Shown here: positions 54,591 to 58,239 of the stretch, in pieces
Layout of the letters: each line of letters begins with the position of its first letter
Numbering within the stretch: the stretch's first letter is position 1
NCBI GenBank assembly: GCA_020086605.1
Contig: JACBWW010000046.1
Coordinates: forward strand, 6,307,354-6,371,353
DNA from: Lanius collurio
Lineage: Eukaryota; Chordata; Aves; Passeriformes; Laniidae
Reading direction: 5' to 3'
Length of the DNA: 64,000 bases
Program-made: the position numbers and the translations under genes
Notes under the pieces: model-generated
Told to the model about the DNA's origin: nothing
Seen by the model: only the letters and a program-made list of their open reading frames with translations
Databases searched by the model: none

Positions 54591-55739
54591 ATGCCAACCC
54601 CTCAGGCACTACCATGGGGTCCCATCTGCACAGTCACAGCAGTTTCTCCCTGGCCCCTGTGCCCCCAACACCCCATAACCCCTGTATCCCTGGCTCCTGG
54701 AGACACAGGGTGCAATTAATTGAGGGGATATTTGATGGGGTTTACTTGCTTTTGTGACAAAAGTGGTGGTGTCTTCTTGTCTCAGGGGTGCTTCTGGCAG
54801 CCAGATGCAGCGGAGGTGTTGACGGCAGGTCCAGCTCCTCTCTGGAGGTTCAGCTCCCAGTTCAGGGTCGTTGGCTCTTTCTTGGCTCACCAGGAGTGTT
54901 CCCCCTCCTTGGCCAGCTCTCTCCACCTTCTACCGGCTGCTGCAGGGCTCTCCCTACCTGCACCTCTGTCCCTCACCATTACCTGCTTTTCTGATGAGGT
55001 GAGCTGCCCCCAACATTCTACCAGGGCTTGGAGAGGGGAAAATAACAGTGTTTAGAAAGTTACTTTTTTTCCCATTCATGCATAAGTCACCTATTCACAT
55101 GGGTGATTCATGTTCCTATACAGGAAATTTGCCCAGTTACTCAAGCAAAACTCAAATTGACATCTTTTATGGCACTGGTTTTCCCTGCAGCTCTCTCAGC
55201 AAGAGTATAGAAATCACATGGATCCATCACAAATATCCTCATGGGTATGCAAGGACTTCCCTCAAGTTCATAGGTTTCTAGGTGTAAAAACCAATAAAAA
55301 GTAAGGTAAGCTGGAGGTGTTGGATTGCTGGGCATACCAGAGCTATCCTGCTGAGAGGGTGGGTCCCTTCAGAAAGGATGTGACAGTAGGCGGTCTCTCT
55401 CCTCTAGGACTCAGAAGAATGTTGCACTGTGGCAAGGAAGACAAAACACCTCTGTTTAAGGTAAGGTTGTGCTAAAATAGGCTGAAGCCAAGAATTTCAA
55501 ACGTAGGCAATCTTTCCATCCTTCACTCACTGTGGTTTAAACCAAAAAGCAAACAGTAATGTTTGTTAAGGACGAGCTTGTGGGTTAAAGTGGAATACTT
55601 TTTTCCAACTTGCCAGTTTGTTAAGCCTTTACTGTTGCTAAAATATTTACTTTCTTCTGCACCTTTTTTAAAAAAACAGCATGACTTTAAAAGGCTTCTG
55701 TGTGCTAGTTATACATCTAAGTTACTTACGAGCCTACCT
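54591..55739. other. Intergenic stretch between CR1 and the provirus
   Basis: I see no gene or recognisable mobile element. Its right end is the pre-insertion target, CTACCT, at 55734-55739. Confidence 0.55.
55734..55739 (+). repeat. Target-site duplication, left copy
   Basis: CTACCT directly before the left LTR, identical to 58234-58239 directly after the right LTR. A 6-bp duplication is typical of alpha- and betaretrovirus-type integration. Confidence 0.9.
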
Positions 55740-56038
55740 TGTTGTAGTGCGGGGAATCCTTAAAACAATATATAAGATAGTGATGGACTTGGAAGGAAAG
55801 ATGAAGCAGTATTTTTGTAGATATTCAGGGATTATTTTATTCCTCCAGCCGCATGGCTGGAGTTCCCAGGCCGACTCCCAGTCATGGGACCCTCCTCTCT
55901 TCCCCGAGCCCCAGGCACACACACCAACCCAATCAGGATCAGGTATGGGGCACACGTGACATGGGGACAGGAACACGGACAGACCCGTACCCTGCAGGGT
56001 CCCTCCCCCTGGGGATTTCAGGGAGAGGCACCTCCACA
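55740..56038 (-). repeat. 3' LTR of the Y-box provirus
   Basis: On the minus strand it runs TGTGGAGGTGCCTCTCCC ... GCACTACAACA. It contains an E-box CACGTG at 55953-55958 and AATAAA in GGAGGAATAAAATAATCC, about 115 bases before the end. It differs from the 5' LTR by about 20 substitutions and small indels. Confidence 0.9.
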
Positions 56039-56056
56039 ATTCACCCTTTCTTATTA
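56039..56056 (-). other. Polypurine tract of the provirus
   Basis: On the minus strand AATAAGAAAGGGTGAAT directly precedes the TG of the 3' LTR, as expected for the plus-strand primer site of a retrovirus. It is slightly imperfect, with pyrimidines inside. Confidence 0.6.
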
Positions 56057-56250
56057 AATAAAATAACATTGGAAACAGTTGGATAAACAACAAAACAATT
56101 TCAAAGGAAAGGAAGCCACTATCTTGAGTCCCTAAATGTCCAAACAGATTTTCTTTGGAGCATCAGAAGGGAGACAGGACTTGAGCATGCTTCAGATGGA
56201 AACTGAGGGATTTTCCATTTTGTACCTGTTGGAATCTTAGTAAATGACGG

Positions 56251-57530
56251 TTAATTTCTTCCCTCCCTCCTTTTCATCCCCCCCATTGGCATTGCAAAGG
56301 GATTAATGGCATATGAAAAAGACTGGTTTTGTGAGGGGTACCAGAAAGGCAGATTTGGGCTGGGCATATATGGGAGATAAAGGGGCATGGGATAAAAGGA
56401 GAAGGTGACATAGGGGAAAGGATAGGGATTATGGGGATATTGTCTAGCATATCTACTGCCTTTGACAGGGACAGCCCCAGGGCCTGTAACACATGCAGCC
56501 TGTGAGCCCTTCCTTCCTTGCACAATTTTAAATTCTACTCTTTCTCCTTCTTCTGAGCTTGGAACATCACTTTTGGGGTTATTTTTTACAATAGCAGACT
56601 TATGGACAAAAATACTTTCTCCAGTATCATTTTTCAACAAGAAACCATAATTTTTCTTTACATTATACCACTTTTTAGGGTTCCAAAAACCCTAGCTGCA
56701 ATAACCTTTTCATTTGTCAGAGTTCCTTTGTTCTTGCTTTCAGCTTTGCTTGCTCTCTCGTCAGAACTGCCGCAGCCGGGACCGCCAGGGCCGGGGCCGC
56801 CACCGCATTCTTGTCACGGGGTCTGGACTCCTCGGGATCGCGTGTGGGGCCGAGTGGGTCTGGTCAGGCCATGCTGGTGCACGCTGACCCTGCCAGCTGT
56901 TCCGCCATTGGCCCCCTCTGCACTGCTGCTTGGCGCTGTGCTCGCTACTCCTCTGGAGCTCTGCATGACTGCTCCATGCTTTCCAGGCGTTTGCACGGCT
57001 GCACGGCCGCGCCCTGGGAGGCATTCGCATGTTCATGGCTTCGTATCGCCGGCACTGCCACTGCTGCTGCTGCCATCGGCTGTGTGCCCGTCGGCTAGCA
57101 CAGTTTCCTTCTTGCCCCCACGCCCCTCTGGCTCTGCTCAGCGTGGCGCACCACGGTCGCCATAGCGACTGCCACAATTGCCACTGCCTTTCTCCGTGCG
57201 GGGCTTGGACTGTCGCTCGCCACGCGGCGCGGGGTGGCCATTGCTGGGACGCACCTTGGCCGCCACTGCCCTCGCCGCTGCCTCAGGGCGAACACCGCCA
57301 GGCCCACGCCGCCGCGTTGCTCCTGGCTCCATTCCCACCACCTCTGGTCTCCCTGCCGGCTCTGCTGCCGCTGTGCCGGGCCTCACTGGCTCTCCCACAC
57401 GCGGGAGCTCCCTCGCCGCCGCCCGCAATGCACCCGGCGCCCACGGCCGGGGCCGCGCGGTCTCCGGGGTGGTGGAGGAGCCCACTGCAACGCGCGCACT
57501 GCTCGACCACATGTTCGCTGCTAAAACCTC
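56251..57530 (-). pseudogene. Captured Y-box / cold-shock-domain coding sequence, broken
   Basis: The minus strand encodes a cold-shock domain of the Y-box family (YBX1/2/3 type, RNA and Y-box DNA binding) at about 56446-56715. Visible marks are KWYNVKKNYGF (RNP1-like, family KWFNVxxGYGF), SIFVHKSAI (RNP2-like, family VFVHQTAI), KNNP, ERVEFKIVQGRKGSQAA, and VTGPGAVPVKGSRYA, the Y-box-specific end of the domain. Upstream is a Gly/Pro-rich stretch (GGGPGPGGPG) and an acidic/basic linker, like a Y-box N-terminus, in a GC-rich block reaching about 57530. A 2-nt shift in the T run at 56672-56676 breaks the frame inside the first strand of the domain, and stops lie upstream. After the domain comes an unusual Pro/Tyr/Phe/Met-rich tail ending GGMKRREGRN at 56254, not the alternating basic/acidic repeats of host Y-box proteins. 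There are no introns. The source paralogue is not resolved. Confidence 0.8.
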
Positions 57531-57785
57531 AGCGGGACACAGCCAATATTGCTCAACAGTCTCTGAAATCAGGTAATACTCACGGAAATAGTCCTGCATC
57601 GGCATATTTTTTGATTCGGAAATTAACTGTGTCCAAACATTCTTCCCAAAGTCCTTGGTAGGAATCAACTTCCACGAAACATAGAAGAAGTTTTTAAACA
57701 GCCATGCCAAAAAGTGTCTTAATTCTTTCTGATCTTAAATTAAACTAAAATCTACATATTGCTGTTCCAGAACCTTTTTAAGTTA
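57531..57785 (-). pseudogene. Gag matrix-like remnant
   Basis: Just inside the 5' LTR side, the minus strand encodes a short helical, Trp/Tyr-rich segment (for example FLAWLFKNFFYVSWKLIP and YFREYYLISETVEQYW). Its position and pattern resemble the N-terminal matrix part of a retroviral Gag. One in-frame TAA (57735-57737) interrupts it. From 57710 the frame is open to 57138 and so passes without interruption from this segment into the GC-rich captured part. The Gag call rests on pattern and position, not on a database match. Confidence 0.45.
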
Positions 57786-57936
57786 AAGGTAAATGTCTCT
57801 TTGTGGTTCGGACAGCCATGAGTCCTTCCATGAGTCCTCCATCGTTCAGAGATGGGACAGCAAAACAAAAGCAAGAGATATGGAGAGTTACGAATTATGT
57901 TTTCCAGGGATCATTTGCCAGCATTTCTCTACCATT
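57786..57936 (-). other. Provirus leader between 5' LTR and Gag-like remnant
   Basis: About 150 bases of untranslated leader. The sequence next to the LTR, TGGTAGAGAAATGCTGGC, starts TGG two bases after the LTR as a primer-binding site should, but I do not recognise the matching nuclear tRNA 3' end. A packaging signal would lie here but cannot be seen. Confidence 0.5.
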
Positions 57937-58233
57937 TGTTGTAGTGCGGGGAATCCTTACAACAATATATAAGATAGCGATGGACTTGGAAGGAAAGATG
58001 AAGCAGTATTTTTGTAGATGTTCGGGGATTATTTTATTCCTTCAGCGCATGGCTGGAGTTCCCAGGCCGACTCCCAGTCATGGGACCCTGTTCTCTTTTC
58101 CCCAGGCCCCAGGCACACACCACCCAGTCAGGAACAGGTATGGGGCACACGTGACATGGGGACAGGGACAGGGACAGACCCGTACCCTGCAGGGTCCCTC
58201 CCCCTGGGGATTTCAGGGAGAGGCACCTCCACA
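57937..58233 (-). repeat. 5' LTR of the Y-box provirus
   Basis: On the minus strand it starts TGTGGAGGTGCCTCTCCC and ends GCACTACAACA. It has the E-box CACGTG at 58148-58153 and an AATAAA signal at the equivalent place to the other LTR. It would drive transcription towards STK26. Confidence 0.9.
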
Positions 58234-58239
58234 CTACCT
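58234..58239 (+). repeat. Target-site duplication, right copy
   Basis: CTACCT directly after the right LTR, identical to 55734-55739. Confidence 0.9.

Follow-up and report, generated by a model that had tools for sequence, protein, structure and literature searches.

A numerous endogenous-retrovirus-like family of Lanius collurio carries an intronless Y-box cold-shock domain in what may be a short Gag

The genome of the passerine bird Lanius collurio contains a numerous family of short elements resembling endogenous retroviruses, in which a pair of long terminal repeats (LTRs) encloses an intronless Y-box cold-shock domain. One copy lies on the minus strand of the window analysed here, a stretch of 64,000 nucleotides (assembly GCA_020086605.1, contig JACBWW010000046.1, positions 6,307,354 to 6,371,353 of the forward strand), where it spans window positions 58233 to 55740, or 2494 bp, and consists of a leader and an interior flanked by the LTR pair. 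Neither the anatomy of this element nor the existence of a multi-copy family leaves serious room for doubt. The reading that we prefer goes further, and we give it even weight for and against: the family would be non-autonomous and moved by a helper, and would encode a fused protein amounting to a short Gag with an RNA-binding cold-shock domain.

The two LTRs of the window copy (5' LTR, 57938-58233, 296 bp; 3' LTR, 55740-56038, 299 bp) are 93.3% identical (blastn E 7e-127), have TG and CA at their ends, and are bracketed by a perfect target-site duplication, CTACCT, read directly at 58234-58239 and 55734-55739, with the same pair present at the other haplotype of the site (L009, whose flanks are 99.9-100% identical to those of the window). 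AATAAA stands at position 198 of the 3' LTR and occurs in 36 of 38 family LTRs examined, and the purine-rich AAGAAAGGGTGAAT that adjoins the 3' LTR is the polypurine tract. Behind the 5' LTR lies a leader (57831-57937, end approximate), at the start of which the copies read have TGGT(A/G)GAG, a tentative candidate for the primer-binding site with which no tRNA match was established. Pfam finds no pol or env in any of six scanned interior frames of the window copy, and the lack of pol makes the element non-autonomous; an Rfam scan of the window gave no match at curated cut-offs. The cold-shock domain (56446-56739, start approximate), with its RNP1-like, RNP2-like and TGPGAVPVKGS motifs, is recognised as PF00313 (E 4.3e-16) at residues 7-70 of the minus-strand open reading frame (ORF) 56251-56691, the top PDB matches of which are YB-1 and YBX2 (E about 3e-26). 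A frameshift near 56680 breaks the domain in this copy, its first residues being open in a second frame (56658-56813), and structure prediction of the domain ORF without an alignment was unsuccessful (pLDDT 38.5). A preliminary description, made from the letters of the window alone, had seen the TG...CA repeats with their duplication, the AATAAA signals, the polypurine tract, the interior devoid of pol and env, and the cold-shock domain, all of which hold up under these searches; it did not describe the matrix-like head and linker discussed below, and could not see the large family to which the element belongs.

The size of that family was gauged from first-look matches in the 1.097-Gb assembly, 40 of which were scored per query, and which indicate copy number rather than an exact count. 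A 441-bp Y-box piece gives 1051 such candidates (the 40 scored are 93-100% identical), a type-A head 698, a second head, type B, 322 and the LTR 3323, numbers in line with about one thousand bodies and, in addition, solo LTRs; when ten LTR matches were read for 120 bases on each side, four adjoined family interior and six had none of it. The best-matching 20 of the 40 scored places were fetched with about 4.7 kb per side (L009-L028). An LTR pair surrounds the Y-box in 19 of them, the remaining copy (L011) having the 3' LTR only, and the TG...CA ends are present in most and mutated in some. L010 and L023 represent a single site on its two haplotypes, and with L009 counted as the window site the LTR-pair copies stand for 18 distinct sites. 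All 18 have the LTR-Y-box-LTR layout by which the preliminary description had proposed to recognise a mobilised family, and 17 have a 6-bp duplication of their own, no two alike, lying exactly at the LTR ends in 14 cases and with ends shifted by 1-3 bases in three (L014 has none). The family has thus been mobile. Divergence between paired LTRs runs from 0.035 to 0.163 (Kimura two-parameter distance, 19 copies), which, at a substitution rate for birds of ~2e-9 changes per site per year, would put the insertions at about 9-40 million years of age, an estimate that exchange between copies may blur.

These observations also bear on the simplest alternative, namely a chance Y-box retrocopy within an older provirus, or LTR-like repeats that flank a retrogene. 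We regard this as practically discounted, since the same layout recurs across the 18 sites with their separate duplications, and since head, linker and domain stand in one frame in other copies. When places were picked by the type-A head alone, Y-box sequence was found downstream at 18 of 20, in one case (L075) interrupted, and of four further type-B copies picked in the same manner all four have the Y-box together with the 3' LTR. The 18-site layout and these head-selected places lead us to reject the idea of a Y-box retrocopy that entered an old provirus later, one of the findings that the preliminary description had named as counting against it. Of the two places lacking a Y-box in the 600 bases read, L065 exits the element within the linker and L062 shows no element; neither resembles a helper, though 600 bases cannot exclude one.

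Individual copies and contigs show some further peculiarities. L010 (G000:C46:5500500-5510400) and L023 (G000:C45:925200-935100) are 99.6% identical in their flanks and 96.9% in their elements, and when L010 is compared with the window copy, three interior pieces agree at 96-98% and four more at 84-89%. This suggests that copies have exchanged sequence, or else that the assembly is faulty. The 6.4-Mb contigs C45 and C46, the second of which holds the window, are apparently two haplotypes, in opposite orientation, of one chromosome piece, so that copies on both would be counted twice. At L075 (G000:C38:7131520-7132120) the start of the Y-box and the sequence upstream are interrupted by a non-family stretch in which an end sequence is repeated and a few N occur in a row.

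The overlapping open frames of 19 copies follow a single plan, in which a matrix-like head is joined through a Pro/Ala/Arg-rich linker to the Y-box domain and an aromatic, proline-rich tail. The open stretch of L018 runs from the Met of the head into the linker (235 codons) and that of L013 from within the head through the end of the linker (362 codons); those of L014 and L025, of 295 and 299 codons respectively, begin in the linker and include the last codons of the tail. In L021 an open stretch of 391 codons starts at the Met and stops shortly before the domain, with part of its linker frame-shifted relative to other copies. In the window, again on the minus strand, the corresponding parts are a type-A head (57500-57830, limits approximate), the frame of which is broken, with an open piece inside ORF 57138-57734 and homologous open, Met-starting heads elsewhere; a GC-rich Pro/Ala/Arg/Ser linker (56740-57499, limits approximate) that is family-wide in one frame with the head and the Y-box; the domain itself; the tail with its stop codon (56251-56445); and a 3' untranslated region (UTR) with the polypurine tract at its end (56039-56250). 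Linker indels common to at least two copies are multiples of three in five cases out of five, as are 11 of 27 private ones, and for comparison the shared indels of the 3' UTR include two multiples of three and two that are not. The linker is probably disordered, and the head would be a small Gag matrix. Neither head type has a match in Pfam or a relevant one in PDB, and with these databases no recognisable matrix or capsid was found that would place heads A and B in class II (betaretrovirus-like); the 6-bp duplication, which we take to fit a class II endogenous retrovirus, is the sole class II feature fitting here. The viral contigs searched contained no relative of the head or of the domain.

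The host has a YBX1 gene on contig C64 and a YBX3 gene on contig C9. The cold-shock domain of YBX1 is spread over four exons, whereas in the element it runs continuously across the positions of all three introns, as for a captured mRNA, and aligns with YBX1 without a gap over the 78 codons compared. By Pfam, PDB and this alignment it is a Y-box-type cold-shock domain with nucleic-acid-binding residues, and the W, F, F and H that we take to be the RNA-stacking residues of YB-1 are kept in 35, 37, 36 and 36 of 37 copies. Across these copies the domain is identical to YBX1 at 42-47 of 76-78 residues, with a nonsynonymous divergence (dN) of 0.28-0.34 and a synonymous divergence (dS) that is either saturated or at least about 2. 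A dN near 0.3 beside saturated dS points to an old capture and a long-constrained domain; the comparison thus suggests that the domain was for long under strong protein-level constraint, either in the element or in some unknown intermediate and so not necessarily inside the element, and that the insertions are probably much younger than the capture. The main proposal of the preliminary description, that a retrovirus had captured a Y-box mRNA, is supported by the layout at the many sites as well as by the intronless domain; its comparison with acute transducing viruses gives way to a numerous, old family. Its hope of naming the donor paralogue does not survive, because synonymous divergence from YBX1 is at or near saturation and gives no means of choosing between YBX1, YBX3 and a relative since lost.

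The same saturation would fit a different history, which we consider improbable, in which the Y-box came from another mobile element or from a lost host paralogue, without mRNA capture by this lineage, and in which the constraint records that earlier life. The tail would also fit, as by eye it is aromatic and proline-rich where the YBX1 exons are Arg-rich, and no stretch of the YBX1 exons seen looks like it; so would the result of a YBX2-like query, which revealed no third host gene, its 18 matches being YBX1, YBX3 and 16 unread places resembling family copies. Against such a history stands the gap-free alignment with YBX1, and we know of no other source of the domain. Y-box proteins have C-terminal alternating basic and acidic clusters, and inspection of the element tail by eye found none. 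Capture from a spliced mRNA is the origin that we retain in what follows.

Two of the fetched copies, L012 and L028, have the type-B head, which cannot be aligned to type A as DNA and is 35% identical to it as protein. Two strongly diverged heads thus share the same LTRs and the same cassette. In a tree of 39 domains (44 sequences were tried, and five left out, two as short and three as matchless), the head type changes at least seven times, and shuffling of the labels does not raise that number (mean 6.6); this tree is poorly resolved, and its well-supported branches require only two head changes. The natural reading of the scatter of heads A and B across the Y-box tree would be recombination, by template switching, between co-packaged genomes.

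How far the fused frame has mattered during the spread of the family can be approached through variation among copies. Over the domain and tail of 37 copies, 15 have a frame-breaking indel and 15 an in-frame stop. Singleton variants of the domain are near neutral (dN/dS, or omega, about 0.92), and omega falls to 0.64 (p 0.04) for variants in at least two copies and to 0.53 (p 0.08) for those in at least four; the controls (LTR, 3' UTR and wrong frames) span 0.63-1.86 at the first of these two levels and 0.55-1.65 at the second. For the type-A head, variants in at least two copies give an omega of 0.41 (p 0.003, 16 rows), below the range of the controls. Mean pairwise identity, taken over 22 copies (16 for head A and half of the linker), is highest in the 3' UTR (0.942), the domain (0.932) and the tail (0.931), followed by head A (0.91), the LTR (0.87) and the linker (0.84-0.85). 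The non-coding 3' stretch at 56039-56250 is in this respect as conserved as the coding domain, and may hold a cis-acting RNA signal.

Several of these results weigh against a functional short Gag. No copy of the 19 has a fused frame open from end to end, the design having been pieced together from different copies, and only 11 of 37 are open throughout domain and tail. Within-family omega was rejected as evidence of selection on the domain, as the LTR, 3' UTR and wrong-frame controls overlap it, and raw conservation of domain and tail was likewise set aside, the 3' UTR being equally conserved. The linker has an omega of 0.82 (p 0.15) for variants in at least two copies, the sole indel shared among type-A heads has a length not divisible by three, and the label 'matrix-like' draws on position, start codon and inspection. 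Finally, no helper was recognised at the 24 head-selected places, 20 of them read for 600 bases only, or beside the ten LTRs read for 120 bases per side, which is not a full search.

Much of this would be expected if the Y-box were a passenger, with LTRs, leader and 3' UTR sufficing for movement and the Y-box frame of use, if ever, at about the time when it was captured and not beyond. We consider this unlikely, though the most serious of the alternatives: the domain's omega does not differ from that of the non-coding controls, conservation is no lower in the 3' UTR than in the domain, and 26 of the 37 copies are broken. A passenger, however, does not readily account for the retention of Y-box sequence at nearly all head-selected places of both types, for shared linker indels that preserve the frame without exception, for a type-A head with shared-variant omega under every control, or for a dN from YBX1 far under dS.

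If the fused protein is instead a short Gag, the following course of events can be proposed. A spliced host-type Y-box mRNA would have been the source of the cold-shock domain, which came to be fused behind a matrix-like Gag head. Devoid of pol, the element would borrow reverse transcriptase and integrase, so that a helper retrovirus would provide both copying and integration in trans. Its translated product would have the logic of a minimal Gag, that is, a matrix, a flexible linker and an RNA-binding end, in which the cold-shock domain stands in for capsid-nucleocapsid; the head would carry the protein to helper particles or to the assembly site, and the domain would bind, protect and help to package the element's own RNA. 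According to passages of PMC6040738, YB-1 supports the production of MLV and MMTV in an RNA-dependent manner and binds the RSV promoter, and in published work it appears as a cofactor of several retroviruses, one of which has a Gag that assembles with YB-1. This support of retroviruses by YB-1, together with the minimal-Gag logic, leads us to favour packaging or protection of element RNA as the role of the fused protein, a role that we put at slightly under an even chance.

The link between YB-1 and a retroviral promoter raises a further alternative, in which the fused protein boosts transcription from its own LTR, or masks and stores element mRNA in germ cells. At LTR position 103 (55929-55936 in the 3' LTR of the window), 22 of 38 family LTRs have CTGATTGG, presumably the core of the Y-box DNA element, and its eight columns average 0.93 conserved as compared to 0.87 for the LTR, a lead only. 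At two of the eight bases, however, conservation across LTRs is only 0.87 and 0.79, many other octamers of the LTR are more strongly conserved, LTRs commonly contain CCAAT-type boxes, and a nuclear function would not need a particle-directed head. YB-1 is said, again in passages of PMC6040738, to raise transcription from the RSV promoter, which would suit such a role; on balance an expression function appears rather improbable, less so than a foreign origin of the domain and more so than a passenger.

A short Gag moved by a helper would have its nearest counterparts among known defective retroviruses. Acute transducing avian retroviruses are gag-oncogene fusions. Like them, the Y-box family is non-autonomous and LTR-flanked, has an intronless host-derived sequence behind the start of gag (if the head, unproven as such, is gag) and presumably requires a helper. 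It differs in being a family of the germline, for which first-look candidates number about a thousand and LTR divergence is as given above, in having a Y-box RNA-binding domain as its cargo in place of an oncogene, and in a capture apparently older than the insertions. Non-autonomous endogenous retrovirus families such as VL30, ETn and ART-CH are likewise multi-copy, without a working pol, and mobilised in trans, but are not known to have a captured host domain in a fused frame. With host YBX1 and YBX3 (L052 and L053) the family shares a cold-shock domain with mostly kept nucleic-acid-binding residues; unlike these genes, it has a Gag-like head and a different linker in place of the host N-terminus, and the aromatic and proline-rich tail in place of the Arg-rich C-terminus of YBX1. 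The closest songbird case seen is TguERVL2, an endogenous retrovirus for which a foreign domain within gag has likewise been proposed: PMC6523648 describes a putative herpesvirus envelope C domain in the gag frame (a weak match, E about 8e-4) in an element of about 6.4 kb with reverse transcriptase. The Y-box family differs in its 2.5-kb scale, in having no pol match and in the nature of the foreign domain. Neither Y-box nor cold shock occurs in the main text of PMC6523648, and no report of a Y-box-bearing retroelement was found among titles and abstract beginnings of the open-licence PMC literature, a scope outside which lie the supplements of PMC6523648 with their repeat consensus sequences. 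A non-autonomous retroelement bearing a host gene is a known kind, and within that literature the Y-box cargo, its fusion and the scale of the family appear to be new.

Captured host genes are familiar chiefly in the form of oncogenes carried for a short time. Here the RNA-binding domain of a general host protein has turned into a lasting part of a mobile family, and may be a case of a new RNA-binding module in Gag. In its fullest form, which we put forward tentatively, the captured Y-box domain would have replaced capsid-nucleocapsid as the RNA-binding part of Gag, been kept through perhaps a thousand insertions and been passed between two heads; if so, a retrovirus lineage would have internalised a cellular cofactor that other retroviruses borrow. 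An element with its own version of YB-1 makes the role of that protein for retroviral RNA testable by sequence and by biochemistry.
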